From assembly GCA_960531495.1 (NCBI GenBank), contig OY482847.1, positions 15,180,187 to 15,244,186 of the forward strand: DNA of 64,000 bases, read 5' to 3'. Position numbers and translations under genes: made by a program. Each line of letters starts with the position of its first letter. The first letter of the stretch is position 1. The stretch comes from Zeus faber (taxonomy: Eukaryota; Chordata; Actinopteri; Zeiformes; Zeidae). The notes under the pieces are model-generated. The model was not told the origin of the DNA, ran no database searches, and worked only from the letters and a program-made list of their open reading frames with translations. Positions 2,402 to 58,205 of this stretch are shown piece after piece.

Positions 2402-2494
<93 letters not shown>

Positions 2495-2648
2495 TTGGGG
2501 AAGTTGTGTGTACCTGCGATTTTCACCGGTATGATAGCCATAGCCATCAATAACTCCACTCGAGGCCTGGAATTACCATTCCGGCCTTTTTCCCCCCATG
2601 TGGTTTTCCGCTGGAAGGTGCCAGTGGCTCCACAGCTGATCACGCTGG
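1..2648 (-). other. cnst 3' UTR and downstream flank
   Basis: AT-rich sequence beyond the cnst stop codon with no convincing ORF on either strand. On the minus strand T/A-rich stretches near 785-800 contain AATAAA-type signals (TTTATT on plus), so the 3' UTR could run to about there, but the cleavage site cannot be fixed. It also contains an 11-12 nt G run near 647-658, a T run near 2058-2072 and a long (TG)n at 2405-2492. Confidence 0.4.
2405..2492. repeat. (TG)n microsatellite, ~88 bp
   Basis: Uninterrupted TG dinucleotide tract on the plus strand, in the probable 3' UTR of cnst (CA in the transcript). All predicted peptides across it are frame artefacts (poly Val-Cys or Thr-His). Confidence 0.97.
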
Positions 2649-14414
<11,766 letters not shown>

Positions 14415-14445
14415 CTCACCGTTACCTGAAAATGTAAAAAATATA

Positions 14446-15237
14446 TACACCGGTCAGCCACAACATTAAAACCACTGACAGATGAAGTAAATCACATTGT
14501 TCATCTCGTTCCAATGACACCTGTCAAGGGGTGGGATATATAAGACAGCAAGTGAACAGTCAGTTCTTGAAGTTAATGTGTTGGAAACAGGAAAAATGTG
14601 CAAGCGTAAGGATCTGAGCCACTTTGACAAGGGCTACATTGTGATGGCTAGACGGCTGGGTCAGAGCATCTCCGAAACGACAGGTCTTGTGGAGTGTTCC
14701 CAGTATGCAGTGGTTAGTACCTACCAAAAGTGGCCCAAGGAAGGACAACCGGTGAACCGGCAACTTGGCCGTCCATGGGCTCATTGATACGCAGGGAAAG
14801 TCAAGTCTAGCCCGTCTGGTCCGATCCCACAGAAGAGCTACTGTAGCACAAATTGCTGAGAAATGCTGCTATGATAGAAAGGTTTTGGAACACACAGTGC
14901 ATCAGAGCTTGCTGTATATGGGGCTGTGTAGCGACCAGTCAGAGAGTCAGAAAGCGCCTACAATGGACATGTGAACGTCAGAACTGGACCATGGAGCAAT
15001 GGAAGGAGGTGGGCTGGTCTGATGAATCATGTTTTCTCCTACATCATGTGGATGGCTGGAGTTAGGGTCCAATCCGATGGAGCATCTGTGGGATGTGCTG
15101 GAACAACAAGCCTGATCCATGGGGGCCCCAGCTTGCAACTTACAGGACTTAAAGGATCTGCTGCTAACGTCTTGGTGCCAGATACCACAGGACACCTTCA
15201 GAGGCGTTGTGCAGTCCATGGCTCGACCGGTCAGCCC
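14446..15237 (+). mobile_element. Tc1-like transposon, internally deleted and 3'-truncated copy
   Basis: Begins with the terminal repeat TACACCGGTCAGCCACAACA. It then encodes broken Tc1-type transposase pieces: an N-terminal [20 protein letters not shown] helix-turn-helix segment (from about 14590), HTVHQSLLYMGL (about 14890), and WTMEQWKEVGWSDESCF carrying the first catalytic D of the DDE domain. Just after it the sequence jumps to the C-terminal part near 15063, so most of the catalytic core is missing. The 3' terminal repeat is lost at about 15237, where CA-rich sequence follows. The same deletion occurs in the copy at 59821-60643. The left end lies 20 bp upstream of the cnst exon acceptor at 14426. 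Confidence 0.85.
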
Positions 15238-15285
15238 AAGACTGTCCTGGGTCTAGGTAATCAACGAGCAACAGGTAAAACCCCC

Positions 15286-15391
<106 letters not shown>

Positions 15392-16432
15392 TGTCATGAC
15401 ATGTCTCCCATCTGCTCTGGGATTGTTCCACCTAGCCCACTCGATGCAATGAAACTGGTATGTTTTCAACCCCATCATCTGTGCCGGAGGGTCCTGAAAA
15501 CACCACTCCGGTAGTGCGTTGCTGGACACACACACACACACGCACCTCAGTATTTTCTTTTTCTTTTTACTCACTTTAACACATGTTGGAATCTGTATAT
15601 AACGTCTGTTTGGTGATTGTTAAGAGAATTAATGATATGATTGGTAGATATACATCTGTGTGAATAAAATCACCCACTCACCATCATGATCCATCAGGCT
15701 CAGCCCTCAATGCATATGATCTCTCAACATGAAGGCTAATCCACTACATGGAACCCTACAGTGGCTTGCAGAGAATGAGAAGAGAGACCAAAAGAGAAAG
15801 AAGGAGAGACAGCACCAGAGAGAGAAGGGGGGAACACGTTAAGCATCATTCCTGAGTAACCAAACAAACCCTAACAAGTTTTTAAGACATGAAAAAAAAA
15901 AGTGACAGCCCTGACAACACCCTGCACGGAGATTGGAATGACACCCGCCAGAGAAGGAAGAAAACATCTATTTAAATGCCCTCCCTCGTTCTAAAATGCT
16001 AAATGGATTAACTTGGAAATAAGGATACCAAAAAAAAAGATTATTCGATAAAACTGTTTCGTGTTACAGTACGAGATGACTACGAAGATTATATGGACTG
16101 ACATTTCCAATTTAGCTGACATCATAGTGGTCGACAATATTTATCCATGGATAAAATACATAAAAAGAAAGAAATTAAATTTTAAAAATCTTGATTCCCC
16201 TGAGGTTAAATCCGATCTATGAAAACAAAAACAAATGTAAGATCAACTTCTCATGTTCTACCTGCCAAGTTTAAACAGTTCATAGCGACTTTTTTTTTTT
16301 ATAACATATATTTTCTTCTCTGTGAGGTAAGGACTGGAGGTAAGTTAAGGTAAGTTTAATTTAGAACGATTTAAATGTATATTTAATACAACACAGACAA
16401 TTAATATTATTATACAATTATAATTACAAAAC

Positions 16433-16613
16433 CCTGAATCGCAATTCTGGCGCCACCCCTTGCAGCCGCCTCACGTCGATTGCGCACATTTTAGTGTTTT
16501 TCGTTTTTTTAGAGCTTATTGTGCATAATCTCCGGGTGTCATGACATTTCACTGCATATATGTATGACTGTATGTATATGTATATGACAAATAAACCTCT
16601 TGACTTGACTTGA
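16433..16613 (+). repeat. Dispersed repeat 3' tail, copy B
   Basis: About 180 bp alignable by eye with 24570-24725: GCAGCCGCCT..CG..GATTG.GCACATTTTAG, then GAGCTTATTG.GC.TA.TCTCCGGGTG, then CATTTCACTGCATATATGTA and the AATAAACCTCTTGA ending, here followed by (TTGAC)n. It lies in the cnst 5' intron, antisense to the gene. Confidence 0.75.
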
Positions 16614-17135
16614 CATACAAGTAGAACCTCATGCAAGACATGGCAAACACGCGGAAGCAAACATAATAAGAAACCACTACAAAATATTACAGAAGTGAAA
16701 ATTTTGGAGAGAATAGAAATGGAAAAGAAGCAATAGAGAAGGTATTCTATTTTCTATTCCATTCCTATTTTTCTGTGGAAATGTAGATTTGGAATACGAG
16801 CAGAAGTAAAACAGTGTCACAATGCACGGTGTTGGGATAAATTGGGATTGGGATAAATGTCTAGCCCTAACATTAACTTGTGTAAACCTAGGCTGGGCAA
16901 TAAATAACGATTATAGTTAATTGTCTTTCGCAGTTGCATCCTATATGGAAATTGTGTCTAAAATATTGAATGGATTTCCCAGTATGATAATCTACATAAC
17001 CATATTGTTGAATTTAATTTTTTGATTCCAAGCATACCGTATATATAAAACATTCTTGCACCAGCCTTGAGTACTAGAGTAGTTGTTTTACTTATATGAT
17101 GTAGTAAAGAGGCTGTTCTACTTCTGTAGAATAAG

Positions 17136-17246
<111 letters not shown>

Positions 17247-33320: not shown

Positions 33321-40404
<7,084 letters not shown>

Positions 40405-41188
40405 AGTGGGGTGACACCCCCCCCACCAATGTCGTCCGGCGGGTTTCTTCCAACACTTAATAATAAACGGAATTTACACTTAGTGGATCACAGAGAATCT
40501 GTACCAATTGTAAAAAATATCACTGAAATACTGTCTCTTATAGATGCTGAAATGTCCCTTTTTAAGTGTTGGAATAAATACATCGTCAACGGCTTTTCTA
40601 ACCGTTTGAGTTTCCAAACTCTTTTTTTTTTTTTTTTTTTTTTTCCCCCCCTGTTGGTTTTACTCCGGCCTCCATGGAAAGAGCAAACAGAAAAGAGGTT
40701 TATCTGGCTGTGTGTGTTGTGCTGTACATGCCTGGCTCCTCGATCCGGCATGCGTCTAAAAATCGCGAGCGCTCGGTTTTGTCGAGAAAATTAAGAGTTT
40801 TTGATCAGGACTTTTCTCTCCCGTGTTTTGTTATTTATTTAGAGGGCTTTTGAGTTGAATTTTGCAGTAATCGCTATGCATCGCATCCTTCGTAACCTGC
40901 CTCTTTGCAGCCTTGAAAGAAAAAGTGAAGTGAGCTGTTTGCATTAAAAATATGTAAGATGTTCAATTAAACATGAGTCTCTGCCGATCAACAAATGGTC
41001 TTTTTTTTTTTATCAAATGAATGATCCATCACCTGAAAGCAACGAAAAGGTTTAACTCAGAAGGCCTGTTTTTTTGGGGGTTTTTTTGTGTGTGTGTTTG
41101 TGCTTGTGCGTGCGGTTCACAGGTGTTGCACCTTGTTATGTTTAGGATTTTCCTCTCTTTGCATGTTCTGCTCCGTCACTGGTGAATC

Positions 41189-41198
41189 AATAAATAAA
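41189..41198 (+). promoter_or_regulatory. Polyadenylation signal, probable sccpdh
   Basis: Overlapping AATAAATAAA at 41189-41198, about 0.8 kb after the stop codon. An alternative AATAAA lies near 40571. No other gene on this strand lies between. Confidence 0.45.
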
Positions 41199-41257
41199 CC
41201 AATTTAGGAAAACCAAATTCACTGGCGTGACATTCATTTCGTTTGTTTTAACGAATA

Positions 41258-41297
41258 CGTTAATAGGTGCTCTACAAATAAAGGTTATTATTATAAG
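41258..41297 (+). repeat. Retroposon-type tail, two copies
   Basis: GGTGCTCTACAAATAAAGGTTATTATTAT resembles 42325-42390 (CCACTTTGAGTTGCATGTCG ... GAGGTACAAATAAAGGTTATTATTAT), a tail style common at the 3' ends of fish LINE/SINE-derived repeats. The two copies bracket the receptor N-terminal relic. Family not assigned. Confidence 0.5.
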
Positions 41298-41366
41298 TAT
41301 TATAATATTGATATAGTCATTGGATCCCACTTAGGAGTTGTTTGTAAAATTTAAAAAAACAGATCA

Positions 41367-41447
41367 ATGTCCACTTTTCAGTACAATGCTACTCTCTTCA
41401 ACAACTCTTTCTTTCGTCAAAATTTGTACCTATGCCTATTGTTCTAG
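41367..41447 (+). pseudogene. Relic of the 7TM receptor N-terminus
   Basis: An ATG frame reads MSTFQYNATLFNNS then diverges and stops at TAG 41445-41447. The intact receptor at 42735 begins MSTFQYNASLLNSS. The nucleotide match covers about 45 bp starting exactly at the ATG and then ends. The simplest reading is the remnant of a tandem receptor duplicate, overwritten downstream. An alternative 5' exon is possible but would have to lack the stop. Confidence 0.65.
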
Positions 41448-42734
41448 GATAGAATTTTTTAAATTTTTTATGAAAGTGATCTCATAAATGAAACCTAAAA
41501 ATATGCCATACCATAAGTCTAGAACTAGCCTCAATGTACATGTTTATAAATACATATATACATATGGTGTATATGTGTGTATTTATGCTTTGTGAACTTT
41601 CCTTTTGTCAATTGTGCTGGGACAGATGTGTAGCCAAAAGGAAAAGATGTGGTTTGTTATGAATTTCAATTTGCCTGAGATGAGTCTCTTTTTTTTTTTT
41701 TTTACCTGAAGTTGCTTTGTCTCTGGTGAATGAAGCCGGTGCTGCCGACTGGGGAAGTCTCAACAGTGAAAAGAACAGAGCTAATGATGTGCGACCTGTC
41801 CAAATAAAAGTTTTTAAATTTTTGAATAAAATGACAATGTTCAAGTGAAAACAGTCTATAACTTTAGGTTGTACACAGACTTAAAAACATGGAGGTTCTC
41901 TGGCGTTCCACTGATCCTAACCGGAACCGAACAAACTAAACAATCATCACATTTACTTGGTTCATTGAAACCATTGCTTTTTGTGGAGAGATAAACTTTA
42001 ACAATTGATCCAACATGATATGAATAAATGAGCTCCACATCAAAAAAAACACAGGCTGGACAAATTCAACTAGTTAAAAATAATTATATTTTTTCTTTAA
42101 AAAACACTATATAAAACATAAAAGGCAACCACACGTTAAAAACAGTGACGGCTCCAAAAATGAGTACTGTATAATCTTTACCTTTTTTTCTTTTAATGGA
42201 ATTTTTTACATTTTATTAGCTTGTTCTTACCCTGTTTAAGATGTATTCCATTATTTAAATATTCTACTTTGGAAATGCATTTTGCTTGTTTGCTTTGCTT
42301 TTATCGTGATTAATGCCTTTCAATGTAAACCACTTTGAGTTGCATGTCGTGCATGAAGGGTGAGGTACAAATAAAGGTTATTATTATATTATTATAGAAG
42401 GTACTCACACTCAAAATCTGAGCACAGTGATGAGAGATTTCTCATCAGGATTTTCAGATCTCCGTCGGCGCTCCATTTAAATCACGACCGCGGTAACAAA
42501 CTATTTGCATGTTATTTACCTGAGCTAGTGGACAAAGCTGGACCATTAGTTAAATAGCAGGTGAACAGGACCAGAAAACCATAGGGTGGAACTCTATTCG
42601 CAACGCTATTGTCCCAGCGTAGCAAGGTGCGTAGACGCTCCTGGACTTTGCGTTGCAGGACAAATCGCAAATGTTGAATCGGACCGCCAGGATACCGGAG
42701 GATCTTCCCATCGACGGACTGCAATCTGAGAACG

Positions 42735-43769
42735 ATGTCCACTTTTCAGTACAACGCTTCTCTCCTCAACAGCTCTCAGCAGCTTGCGTCCAATAAAGGA
42801 TGCCAATTCTCCTTGCCAGAGGTGACGGTCATCATGCAGTCCACCATCACCGTCTTGCTGCTGCCCTACTTAGCCGCTGCCCTTCCAGCCAATGTGTGGA
42901 TGATCTGGCTCATCGTTTCTGGAACCAAGGGGTCACTGGCAGCAGATATATTTCTGCTCAATCTGGCTGTGTGTGAGATCGTTCACAGCGTTGGAGCTCC
43001 TCTCTTCCTGTACTGTCTGTATGAGATCGATGCACACCCATTGGTTTCAAAAATACATGCTGAAATTGAGATTTTTGTGTGGCTTGGCCGTCCCCTGTTC
43101 CAGTGTTGCATCTGTGTGGAGCGCTACTTGGCAGTGGTTCACCCTTTGCTCTTCATAAGGTAATTTAAGATTTATTTTAGGAAACGCAGGATCCTTCTTA
43201 TTAGTCTAGTCTGGAAAACTGTAATACATGCATCATGCATCACTCCACTAACGCGTGTTCCATCGTGTTTTTTCCTCCCCAGGTATAAGCCCTTGAGGTT
43301 CAGAGGGGGCTGCTGTGGTCTGATGTGGTTTGTCGTCCTTTTCAACATTTCGATCAATTCGGTTTGGCCGCTGTGGAGCCATCTGGTAACCATTCTATTG
43401 TATTGTTCAACGTTGTTGTTTATCGTTCTGTTCTGTTGTTTATCGGTTCTTTGGTCACTGAAAAGGTCTGGCCCCAGGGGAAAGGAGTGGAAGAAAAAGG
43501 AGGGAGAAGGGCTCAACGGCACAAAGAAAAGAGCGTTCAACATCATTTTGGTTCAGCTGGTGTGTTTTGTGGGCAACTTTCTGCCGTCATTGATGCTCAC
43601 GAGTCTGAAAGATTTTCTGTTTCCCAAGATCTACTACACACTAAGTGGGCTTCTGTATCTGACCGTTTGGTTCGGTCTCTTCCAGCCGCTAAGTTACCTG
43701 CGCAGGGCTGGGAAGCTGACCTGCGCCCCTGCACCGACCCCAAGAGATATTTCAACAGGGAACTCTTGA
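42735..43769 (+). CDS. Divergent rhodopsin-family (class A) 7TM receptor, 2 exons
   Basis: Exon 1 42735-43159, exon 2 43283-43769 (GT-AG, phase 2), 303 aa. Seven hydrophobic segments lie near residues 30-62, 69-96, 108-138, 153-171, 175-200, 226-250 and 257-281. N-glycosylation sites are NAS (7) and NSS (12). Class A marks: N53 in helix 1, ERY at 129-131 at the end of helix 3, and QPLSY (276-280) in place of NPxxY. Departures: Glu81 replaces the helix-2 Asp, Ser105 sits where the helix-3 disulfide Cys is expected, the loop between helices 4 and 5 is only a few residues with no Cys, and helix 6 reads FVGNFLP without the CWxP Trp. The third inner loop is Lys/Glu-rich. The intron falls just after the ERY region. 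I do not recognise an orthologue; it may be a fish-specific orphan. Confidence 0.8.
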
Positions 43770-45083
43770 CACGAGCTAGTCCCAAACAACCTGGGGTTTG
43801 AAGCATGCAGAAGGGATTTCTTTGGAATGGAAAATGACTCGTAGCTCGTAGGAAAATGTTTTTTTAAGGCTATAATTTCATGCATAGTGAGAGATGTCTT
43901 ATCTTCTCCGTAGGCATTTGAGAATCTGTCGGTTCACAACATGTTTTGTCCAACTTTAACATTTTAACTGAAATCTTCTCCCAGTTGACTTTCGAGAGCC
44001 TCTCTAGGGTTTTTGAGGAGTTAGGACAATTTAAACTCTTTTCAAGATATCCAGTGATTCTGTTAGAGCAGTTAGGGCGGATGGCTGACAGGTGCAGAGG
44101 CAAAGTAGGAAAACACACATTCTGACAAAACATAATTTGCCTTTGAAAGGGGAGATAGAGGGTTAGGTCAACATTTGTCAGCAGAGCAGTCTGCGTGAGC
44201 ATATGTTGAAGATTTACATACTCAATGTATGTAAATAGGTGTAGATCTTGTCATAGTACGTAAAGTAGATAATCACCATAACTCAAAGTCAGCCTCAGTG
44301 CTTGGACTCTGTGCAATGACAATTAATTGAATTTAATCTAAGTAATCTCTATTCAAATGGAAGATATTACATTTTTTTCCAAAAATGTATACGACTTAAA
44401 ATGATAGTAATACCTTGTTTATTAACGCTTATTCATTTGCAGCAACATTACCTTTACAGTGCAGCTTGGCATATTTTATCCTTCCAACTATAAACCTGTT
44501 TTACTATGTTTGATAATTTTGATGAATTTAGTTAGTAGTCATGTACCCGTCACTGTTTTCCTTCCACTGAACAATCATTTTATTTATAAAAATGTTACTT
44601 TTTAAAACAACAATTCAACTGTCATGGTTTCAAAGGGAATATGAAAAACTGATTTTTATTTTGTTTCGTTTCAAAAATGTACTTCATAAAAATAGTGATC
44701 TGTACAATTTAAAACAAAGTCTTAATGTCTAATTTACGACTCAAATGTATATGTGTCATCAATGCACATCATTCTCTATTGTTTCACTTGTATGGAAAAA
44801 TACAATAGAAAAATACAACAAATAATCCAATGACATCGCCCCTTCCTCCCTTACAACTATTATGCATATGAGCCAAAATGTATAATATCTGGACAGTATA
44901 TTCTGGTTTGTGACAATTAATGGTTGTTCTTGTTCTGGAAGGGTCCGTTCTGAATGCACCTACTGCACACAGAACAAATGCAGCCTCTCTTTTCAGAGAG
45001 AAAAAAAAAATAAAATCTGTAAGAATGTTTCGAACTCCTTGACGGTTGACGGCACCCCAACATCACTCCAGGTCGTTTGTCGT
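43770..45083. other. Convergent intergenic region between the receptor and gcfc2
   Basis: AT-rich, no ORF of interest. A minus-strand AATAAA (TTTATT at 44655-44660) could end gcfc2. The two genes are tail to tail, so their 3' UTRs share this 1.3 kb. Confidence 0.5.
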
Positions 45084-55172
<10,089 letters not shown>

Positions 55173-55330
55173 CTCGTCTGCTTGTTGTTATTTGGTGTTT
55201 ATTGGCGGTCGGCAAACCGGCACCAAGCACTTCGGTCCGACATGACTCTCGTCGTTATTAACGTATCGGTAGCGAACTAAGCCGTATTCCGGTGGATCTG
55301 TCGTAAAGCGGTCGTAAAGCGGCGTGTTGT
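55173..55330 (-). promoter_or_regulatory. gcfc2 promoter / 5' UTR
   Basis: GC-richer sequence directly upstream of the gcfc2 start codon at 55172. It holds two close copies of GTCGTAAAGCGG (about 55300-55322) and ends at AT-rich flank. No TATA box is evident. In mammals GCFC2 shares a divergent promoter with MRPL19; no such gene is seen here on the other strand. Confidence 0.4.
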
Positions 55331-55534
55331 GCGTAATTTGCAAGCGCGTACGCAGAGTATTGCAGAGGTTATGGGTTTGGGGGGGGGGAGAAAATCGAGA
55401 AAATAATAATATTTAACAACACGGCATTGCGAATTATGTCACAATGACTAATGAGAAATGCAACAGGGGTAGCAATAAAAGACTGCCATTGCCCTCACAG
55501 AACACTCACGCATGAGACGAAGAAGAAGACAAAG

Positions 55535-56527
55535 GCTTGAAGTGGACTCCTTTAGTCGAATTTTTCAGTCCACCTTAAATGGCCGCGATAACGTCATGTG
55601 GCCTGTAGGGGGCTCTGTTCAGTGGCTAATCTCTGTGCTGGGCTGCAGAGGCCTCTGTTGAGAGATTTCTAAAATAAATGATCTGTTGTGAATACTCTGC
55701 ATTCAGGAAAAGAAAAACAAAACAAAACAAAACAAAAAAAAGCAACTACGTATATGCAGCAACCAGAAACCCAACATGACAAGATGGACTGTAAATTGAA
55801 TGAGAAAGGCAAACAGTGACTGCACTTTCCACATAATTGTCATGATTTTATTATGACTTTCATTATGAATATGACCTTTTTATTATTAACTGCTGAACAT
55901 GGCATGTCAGACTGTGGCCTCATTGTGTCATTGCACGTTTCCCTAATTGCTAATTTCCTCCCCACTTATTTTCAGAATGTCTCAAAAGTCGGACACTTGT
56001 GTATGACAGACAAGGAACTTAGTATCGGAATCCAGGCATTTTTGAAAATAAGCGGGGAGGAACCTCGCAATTGTGGAAAAATGCAATGACACAACGACAC
56101 CACAGTCTGCATACCGTGTTCAGAGGTTCATATAAAAATGTCACGATCGCAATAAAATTCAGAATAAAAATCCTATAGTAAAGTCATGACAGTTATGCAG
56201 AAGGTGCAGTCACTTTTTGCCTTTCTCATGCAATTACAGTCCATCTTGTTTTGTTGTGTTTCAGGTGGCTTCATATAATAGCTTTTCGGGGGAAAAAAAA
56301 CAAAACGTTTATTCCATTGAAAAATGCATCCTGGAAAGTCATTGTTTTGTTTTTCTTTTCCTGAATGCAGAGTATTCACAACAGATCAGTCGTTTTAGAA
56401 ATCTCTCAACAGAGGCCTCTGCAGCCCAGCACAGAGATTAGCCACTGAACAGAGCCCTCTACAGGCCACATGACGTTATTGCGGCCATTTAAGGGGGACT
56501 GAAAAATTCGAATAAGGAGCCAACTTG
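55535..56527. mobile_element. ~1-kb palindromic (foldback) element
   Basis: The left arm (about 55535-55983) is matched by the reverse complement of the right arm (about 56033-56527) over nearly its whole length. Paired landmarks: 55556-55612 TCGAATTTTTCAGTC..ACGTCATGTGG with 56470-56510; 55630-55700 CTCTGTGCTGGGCTGCAGAG..GAATACTCTGCATTC with 56360-56445; AAGATGGACTGTAA at 55790 with 56233-56246; CAGACTGTGG at 55909 with 56102-56111; CCTCCCC.CTTATTTTCA near 55960 with 56041-56062. Only about 50 bp remain as loop. Possible target duplication TTGA at both ends (55536-55539, 56525-56528 area). No ORF. Confidence 0.85.
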
Positions 56528-56573
56528 AGAATTAGAGCGAAAATAAACGAAATGGTGCGTTCGAAGTTTCGGA

Positions 56574-56574
56574 G

Positions 56575-56608
<34 letters not shown>

Positions 56609-56648
56609 TAACAATAATAATAATATCATTAATAATAATAATAATAAT

Positions 56649-56691
<43 letters not shown>

Positions 56692-56732
56692 TCATTAATA
56701 ATAATAATAATATTAATAATAATAATAATATT

Positions 56733-56795
<63 letters not shown>
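56574..56795. repeat. (AAT)n microsatellite, ~220 bp
   Basis: AAT/TAA repeat with internal variants (AATATCATTAATAAT and AATATTAATAAT each occur more than once, giving a higher-order pattern). Poly-Ile/Leu ORFs over it are artefacts. Confidence 0.95.
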
Positions 56796-56875
56796 TGACA
56801 ACATATTAAGATGGAAACATACAACGAAGGTAACTGTTCAAGAAAGGGAACCGATAAACAAATTTAACCATCTTT

Positions 56876-58205
56876 GTCTTTCTAGCTCTACCTCCCTCCT
56901 CCCTCCCTCTTTCTCGCCATCTCTCTCCCCCTCCCTCCCTCTCTCTCCATCTCCCTCCCTCCCTCTCTCCATCTCTCTCCCTCCCTCCCTCTCTCTCCAT
57001 CTTCCTCCCCCCCGCCCTCTGTCTCTCCCTCCCTCCCTCTCTCCATCTCTCTCTCCCTCCCTCCCTCTCTCCATCTCTCTCCCTCCATCCCTCTTTCTCT
57101 CCATCTCTCTCCCTCCCTCCCTCCCTCTTTCTCTCCATCTCCCTCCCTCCCTCTCTCCATCTCTCTCCCTCCCTCCCTCTTTCTCTCCATCTCTCTCCCT
57201 CCCTCCCTCCCTCTCTCTCGTTCTCCCTCCCCCGCCCTCTGTCTCTCCCTCCCTCCCTCCCTCTCCATCTCTCTCTCCCTCCCTCTCTCCATCTCTCCAT
57301 CTCTCTCCCTCCCTCCCTCTCTCCACCTCTCTCCCTCCCTCTCTCCATCTCTTTCCCTCCCTCCCCCCCTCTCTCTCCACCTCTCTCCCTCCCCCCGCCC
57401 TCTGTCTCTCCCTCCCTCTCTCCATCTCTTTCTCTCTCCCTCCCTCTCTCCATCTCTCTCCCTTCCTCCTCTCTCTCCCCCCTCCCTCCCTCTTTCTCTC
57501 CATCTCTCTCCCTCCCTCTCTCTCTCTCCCTCCATCTCCCTCCCCCCGCCTCTGTCTCTCCCTCCCTCCCTCCCTCTCTCCATCTCTCTCTCTCTCCCTC
57601 CCTCCCTTGCGCCATCTCTCTCCCTTCCTTCCCTCTCTCCATCTCTCTCCCTCCCTCTCTCTCTCCACCCCTCTCCCTCCCTCCATCTCCCTCCCCCGCC
57701 TCTGTCTCTCCCTTCCTCCCTCTCTCCGTCTCTCTCTCTCTCCCTCCCTCCCTTGCTCCATCTCTCTCCCTTCCTTCCCTCTCTCCATCTCTCTCCCTCC
57801 CTCTCTCTCTCTCCACCCCTCTCCCTCCCTCCATCTCCCCCCGCCCTCTGTCTCTCCCTCCCTCCCTCCCTCTCTCCATCTCTCTCTCTCTCCCTCCCTC
57901 CCTTGCTCCATCTCGCTCCCTTCCTTCCCTCTCTCCATCTCTCTCCCTCCCTCTCTCTCTCCACCCCTCTCCCTCCCTCCATCTCCCCCCGCCCTCTGTC
58001 TCTCCCTCCCTCCCTCTCTCCATCTCTCTCCCTCCCTCCCTCTCTCCATCTCTCTCCCTTCCCTCTCTCTCTCCCCCCTCCCTCTCTCTCTCCCTCCCTC
58101 ACCCCTCCTCTCTCCATCTCCCTCCCTCTCTCCAGCCCCCCCCATCTCTCTCCCTCCCTCCTCTCATCATGTCTCCCTCCTCCCTCCCCTCTCTTCCCTC
58201 CCCCT
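56876..58205. repeat. C/T-rich (polypyrimidine) satellite, ~1.33 kb
   Basis: The plus strand is almost wholly C and T, built from CCCTCC and CTCTCT blocks punctuated by CCATCTCTCTC, CCGCC..CTGTCTCTC and CCACC variants. At the right side a higher-order unit recurs: CTTGC(G/T)CCATCTC(T/G)CTCCC at 57606, 57752 and 57902, spacing 146 and 150 bp. The long Arg/Glu/Gly ORFs on minus and Ser/Leu/Pro ORFs on plus are low-complexity artefacts with no start or splice context. Confidence 0.95.

Follow-up and report, generated by a model that had tools for sequence, protein, structure and literature searches.

A near-complete palindrome upstream of gcfc2 in Zeus faber, best read as an internally deleted copy of a foldback-type, non-autonomous DNA transposon

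A near-complete palindrome lies upstream of gcfc2

The window studied here, the whole 64,000-nucleotide stretch of Zeus faber DNA, contains an open frame that we take, from the start of its protein, to be the first coding exon of gcfc2; a GCFC domain is matched on the minus strand at 48061-48198. Measured from the start codon, a palindromic element begins ~0.36 kb upstream, in agreement with the 0.35 kb of the initial annotation. Beyond it an (ATA)n array begins at 56575 and a C/T-rich array at 56891, as expected from its earlier placement between the gene and an (AAT)n / C-T stack. Elsewhere the window holds thirteen long CA/GT arrays of 73-140 bp with 91-100% matches (2405-17244 and 40126-49823). 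The features are collected in Table 1.

Table 1. Coordinates of the palindromic element, its parts and its neighbour in the window
Feature	Position	Strand	Remarks
Open frame taken to be the first coding exon of gcfc2; neighbour, outside the element	54750-55172	-	First ATG at 55172
Expected left target duplication of the window copy, AAGAAGAAG	55520-55528		4 of 9 positions equal to the right one
Whole foldback-type element	55529-56535		Edges deduced by reference to the family terminus ACGAGGCTGAAGTTGG, which is degraded at either end
Left arm	55540-55982	+	Alignment, looser scoring
Outer block of left arm, resembling the right arm	55556-55732	+	Differences: 6 in 177 columns, against 42 in 258 beyond the block
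Centre (loop), ~51 nt (62 nt under stricter scoring)	55983-56033		Alignment
Right arm, reverse complement of left arm	56034-56526	-	Alignment, looser scoring
Outer block of right arm, equal to the L011 left arm over 177 columns	56350-56526	-	L011 at G000:C3:15959748
Expected right target duplication of the window copy, AGCGAAAAT	56536-56544		4 of 9 positions equal to the left one

When the two halves of 55500-56560 were aligned locally, a left arm at 55540-55977 paired with the reverse complement of a right arm at 56040-56526, in 383 matches, 47 mismatches and 65 gap columns. The identity is 89% over ungapped columns, where the initial annotation had named about 65% as the level below which the palindrome should be given up. 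Looser scoring pushes the arms to 55982 and 56034 and leaves a centre of 51 nt, stricter scoring one of 62 nt; the arms measure 438-443 nt on the left and 487-493 nt on the right, so that the coordinates, arm lengths and loop given earlier all proved correct. The alignment score of 478.5 compares with a maximum of 41 in 51 segments of 1,061 bp taken elsewhere in the window and of 29 for 100 single-base shuffles of the left half, which confirms a near-complete palindrome of ~1 kb. Identity is uneven along the arms, at 96% over the outer ~174 nt and 82-88% in the inner 50-column bins; opposite ~45 nt of ordinary arm sequence on the right, the left arm carries an (AAAAC)n run. A misassembled inverted duplication, the other objection raised beforehand, is disfavoured on the assembly sequence because the arms are 11% apart and copies of the same build exist elsewhere.

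The RNA-folding check proposed in the initial annotation gave -596.8 kcal/mol for 55550-56517, far below the mean of 20 dinucleotide shuffles (-237.4, sd 6.7). Activity as a cruciform or as hairpin RNA is conceivable in principle for such a sequence. Given the 51-62 nt centre and the 11% mismatch between the arms, spontaneous cruciform extrusion should be less likely than for a perfect palindrome. No Rfam family reached its threshold within 55300-56900.

The palindrome is one copy of a dispersed family

A search of the same genome for further copies, also proposed earlier, shows that the window palindrome is one copy of a dispersed family (803-Mb genome, 153 contigs). With 40 of 90 candidates scored, the left arm has at least 50 matches, a count that takes in both arms of the window copy itself, and a 29-nt arm core is found at 53 sites at three or fewer mismatches, again counting the window's two, against none for a reversed control. 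Arms are present in both orientations at 18 of the 28 fetched loci (numbered L below); the other ten are unpaired or doubtful, and L035, a doubtful one, is not counted.

The longer copies, ~2.1 kb in length, hold the same arms, roughly 0.4-0.65 kb long and ending in ACGAGGCTGAAGTTGG, around a common non-coding centre of ~1.1 kb (~3788-4919 in L019). Because the window copy lacks this shared centre, the best reading of its palindrome is a non-autonomous DNA transposon of foldback type that has undergone internal deletion. L010 (1,222 bp) and L040 (1,317 bp, arms 95.6% identical) are likewise nearly all arm. The earlier description of a non-autonomous element that is nearly all inverted repeat is thus borne out, but not as a separate type, as the window copy appears to be a centre-less derivative of the ~2.1-kb family, with L010 and L040 similar.

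No long open frame was found in seven longer copies; their longest stop-to-stop frames, 96-164 aa, are too short for a transposase. A frame in the centre of L014 had been considered by eye as the captured end of a LINE reverse transcriptase, but Pfam gave only an unrelated match (E=0.15). The centre of L019, used as a query, found at least 33 places outside the listed arm sites, most of them aligned to the initial ~290 nt of the 473-nt query; 40 of 85 candidates were scored.

Insertion of the family makes 9-bp target-site duplications

The copies have the terminus ACGAGGCTGAAGTTGG in common, lying upstream of the arm core; further out, the sequence varies from copy to copy. In the window copy, the right edge rests on an automatic match to this terminus (10 of 16 positions) and the left edge was put by eye on ACAAAGGCTTGAAG, the automatic match there (55517, 9 of 16) being unconvincing. 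Between these edges the arms make up ~93% of the 1,007-bp element.

Flanks were first compared in ten copies with both termini (at least 12 of 16 positions; right end of L039 by eye), copies with one recognisable end being excluded from all flank sets. Among lengths 4-12, length 9 stands out, with a mean of 5.3 equal positions of 9 versus 2.02 for crossed pairs (0 of 20,000 permutations); length 6 is slightly raised (2.3 versus 1.46), largely through L028. Adding L046, L048/L050, L049 and the window copy, whose register was set by eye, gave a set of 14 copies in which 72 of 126 positions are equal at length 9 (mean 5.14 versus 2.22; 0 of 50,000 permutations), and lengths 7, 8, 10 and 11 lie near background. 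That insertion of the family makes 9-bp target-site duplications is statistically firm.

The duplications are clearest in L010, L012 and L039 (8/9 each) and in L023 and L049 (7/9 each). L040, at 6/9, is at the best level that crossed pairs reach, so its age has no independent support from the flanks. L022 and L029 match at 5/9 and L011, L046 and L048 at 4/9, whereas L043 and L028 match at 1/9 in the fixed register; L028 reaches 8/9 with a right end 3 nt shorter, placed by eye. The window copy has degraded termini, and its own duplication is unrecognisable at 4/9.

Foldback elements are recognised by arms that make up most of the element, as in the window copy, L010 and L040 (the longer copies also have a centre), and by dispersed copies with target-site duplications, as seen in the family as a whole.

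The family resembles Mutator/Foldback elements

The length of the duplication bears on the superfamily. Elements of the pogo / Tc1-mariner group duplicate TA and hAT elements duplicate 8 bp. The 9-bp duplication does not fit the former, and the DDE_1 frame found in L048 belongs to a nested element; nor is there a signal at length 8 (2.57 versus 2.09, near background, in the 14 copies). For the P superfamily, the duplications given in the accessible part of PMC4168063 are of 7 bp (Galileo) and 8 bp (P), and neither of these lengths stands out in our flanks. A profile search of the genome with PF12762 (Merlin, IS1595/IS1016-type transposase) returned no match.

Mutator-like elements (MULEs), by contrast, are described in the available text of PMC6446971 as having duplications of 8-11 bp and arms commonly hundreds of bp long, and here the 9-bp duplication and the aligned arms of up to ~0.65 kb are both typical. 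The family may be a true MULE whose transposase gene is present in Zeus faber or a related genome and was missed, a reading also favoured by the similarly built Tm1 family of root-knot nematodes (PMC3169594, in the part available). A transposase was found neither in the seven longer copies nor as a partner: the Mutator model PF10551 matched the genome at one place, a stretch of contig C31 with bacterial-type genes for neighbours. PMC6446971, in the same portion, reports no match to MULE transposases for those vertebrate entries that are listed as autonomous. We consider a true MULE possible but somewhat short of an even chance. Because the Mutator model matched only this contig, MULE membership is not claimed; the family resembles, by analogy, a Mutator/Foldback non-autonomous element.

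The match on C31 (G000:C31:41000-44954, L047) lies among bacterial-type genes including IS256-like and IS1-like transposases and a BamD-like frame, all named by eye, and the contig probably stems from bacterial contamination of the assembly.

Several known systems are comparable, as described in the accessible parts of the cited articles. Tm1 shares foldback long terminal inverted repeats, mostly 9-bp duplications and gene-less MITE-like copies (PMC3169594); it differs in having transposase-bearing copies and arms mainly of 13-15-bp tandem repeats, whereas no transposase was found for the Zeus faber family and its arms are as a rule not arrays (the exception being L029). Galileo, of the P superfamily in Drosophila, is alike in its long foldback arms, varied copy size and build, and ectopic recombination, but duplicates 7 bp rather than 9 bp (PMC4168063). 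The zebrafish MuDR entries of Repbase are possibly the same sort of element, bearing a Mutator label without a confirmable transposase, a likeness drawn from their description (PMC6446971). The same article states, in the part available, that vertebrate MuDR entries, mostly from zebrafish, could not be linked to any Mutator transposase and should be re-evaluated. Among the titles and opening parts of abstracts listed, from literature outside Repbase and subscription papers, we found no fish family of such build, and the family may already carry a name. The kind of element is ordinary; what is worth keeping is a 9-bp footprint without a known vertebrate transposase, together with patchy arm conversion. 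The family supplies the termini, a firm 9-bp footprint and a full arm, which is what a hunt for the missing enzyme in related genomes needs.

Genes inside long copies are read as nested insertions

Autonomous partners were sought as pairs of termini lying far apart, single termini among 37 sites being left out, and none was found among such pairs (L039, L022 and L048/L050), though an autonomous copy may lie among the single termini. The 5.5 kb of L039 include fragments that look by eye like a BEL/Pao retroelement. In L022 (5.2 kb) an endonuclease fragment exceeds the Pfam cut-off and a reverse-transcriptase fragment falls below it. L048/L050 (C6:786344-796176, 9.8 kb; left 5 kb and last 0.4 kb read) has a DDE_1 transposase frame, at first sight a candidate for the partner, but this was rejected because it sits in a nested element with its own ends: a pogo-like element at ~1642-3233 of L048 that is bounded by CCGTATTTTC and contains fragmented DDE_1 and helix-turn-helix frames. 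A Tc1-like element, identified by eye, follows at 3326-4266. We read the retroelement and pogo-like genes inside these three long copies as nested insertions.

L049 (59-947; C9:12586238-12587125), an 888-bp element, was also rejected as a partner. It resembles the known arms near the termini only and has flanks matching at 7/9 at length 9; it may represent a second subfamily that the same enzyme mobilised.

Identity blocks point to gene conversion in some copies

The window copy's own arms differ at 6 of 177 columns in an outer block, which is 96-97% identical, versus 42 of 258 elsewhere (permutation p<=0.0025). Another copy, L011, lies on the same chromosome (C3) at a distance of 723 kb, and its left arm differs from the window right arm at 0 of 177 columns in this block and at 46 of 232 outside it (p<=0.0005), the blocks lying in inverted orientation. 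In a genome search with the outer block, nothing else among the matches listed exceeds 86% (40 of 52 candidates scored); the next reach 86% across 118 nt (L011 right arm), 85% across 91 nt and 84% across the greater part of the block.

Similar blocks are present in L040 (5 differences in 506 columns, 22 of 114 outside) and L046 (22 in 487, 27 of 85 outside). Among the 17 fetched loci with both arm ends placeable (L014 left out), homogenisation reaches p<0.05, uncorrected for 17 tests, in six (the window copy, L028, L029, L040, L041 and L046) and not in the other eleven. In trees, a copy's own arms are sisters in 7/17 cases for outer, 6/16 for middle, 3/15 for inner and 8/17 for all columns, and the own partner is the best outer-block match for 14 of 34 arms. 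The window copy's arms are not sisters in the outer-arm tree, presumably because the L011 arm equals the window right arm there. The outer arm is also the part best conserved between copies (0.77 versus 0.57 for the inner), which inflates within-copy contrasts. Arm homogenisation is not general in the family.

Since the identity blocks have sharp edges in otherwise diverged copies, the sequences point to gene conversion, within an element and between copies, as a better explanation than recent transposition. Recent movement of the window copy or L011 would also yield identical copies, and the block is 100% identical to L011. Such a movement is improbable, as identity ends abruptly at the block edge, the flanking 9-mers of the window copy and of L011 each match at 4/9 only, and no whole-length identical donor is found among the matches listed. 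The blocks could otherwise mark the breakpoints of a 723-kb inversion through ectopic crossover, being inverted relative to each other on one chromosome, and Galileo elements of Drosophila are reported, in the available part of PMC4168063, to have made inversions in this way; yet the flanking 9-mers do not match crosswise by eye, though both duplications may be decayed, and we judge an inversion distinctly improbable. Assembly polishing could in principle homogenise copies that are already very similar, a possible artefact. Gene conversion is not mentioned in the accessible part of PMC3310237. For such elements arm identity is a poor clock, as the contrast between block and remainder in the window copy illustrates.

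A proposed history of the window copy

From the comparison of copies, we consider it very probable that the palindrome belongs to a non-autonomous foldback-type family making 9-bp duplications, and is an old copy that lost its centre and had its arms partly overwritten by gene conversion. A family element would have inserted and made a 9-bp target duplication, as the family rather than this copy indicates, through an enzyme presumably acting in trans. The window copy would then have lost its centre, as comparison with the longer copies suggests, leaving arm against arm. After insertion, part of the arms would have been overwritten by conversion between the copy's own arms and, judging by the same sharp-edged blocks, with the left arm of the copy 723 kb off. 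A broader reading, which we regard as unlikely, is that a vertebrate transposon lineage with Mutator-like anatomy, in its 9-bp footprints and arms of roughly 0.5 kb, is mobilised by a transposase beyond current family models, its palindromes kept near-perfect for long after insertion as arms overwrite one another and distant copies through gene conversion.

A one-off local inverted duplication, by replication slippage or break repair and with no transposon involved, would suit the adjoining simple repeats and the want of a clear target duplication in the window copy, but is most improbable given the same arms at many places, in both orientations at most fetched loci, and the common termini and 9-bp duplications of the copies. 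The window copy is most likely a decayed element with no role for the host, and no host function is indicated.

Variant copies and local duplications

Classical FB elements have arms made of tandem subrepeats. In the Zeus faber family, tandem repeat rows were found by TRF in 9 of 20 copies scanned, with 14 bp x 55.8 in L029, 19 bp x 4-9 in L046 and the rest short or simple, and the inner ~120-150 nt of the arm is present more than once in some copies (e.g. L023, L025 and L045). The L029 array, at 4235-5015 (element positions 1440-2220), consists of 55.8 copies of the 14-bp unit AGAGTATTCATAAC. It appears to derive from the arm itself (arm consensus TTATGAATACTCTG; origin judged by eye), which would make it a transposon arm becoming a minisatellite. 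Tetris of Drosophila virilis, a foldback transposon giving satellite building blocks, is comparable to this array by its description in the available part of PMC4079207.

Some copies lie in longer stretches of similarity. L014, L017 and L016 (C4:28492217-28494282, C4:28555030-28557094 and C90:10917-12981) resemble one another through most of the 8-9 kb fetched; the first two are ~62.8 kb apart on C4 and the third lies on the 62,866-bp contig C90. Probably this is a 63-kb duplication, with C90 a further copy or a haplotig. L031 and L032 (C17:28344759 and 28372913), 28 kb apart, resemble each other across most of the 7.5 kb fetched and represent a local duplication.
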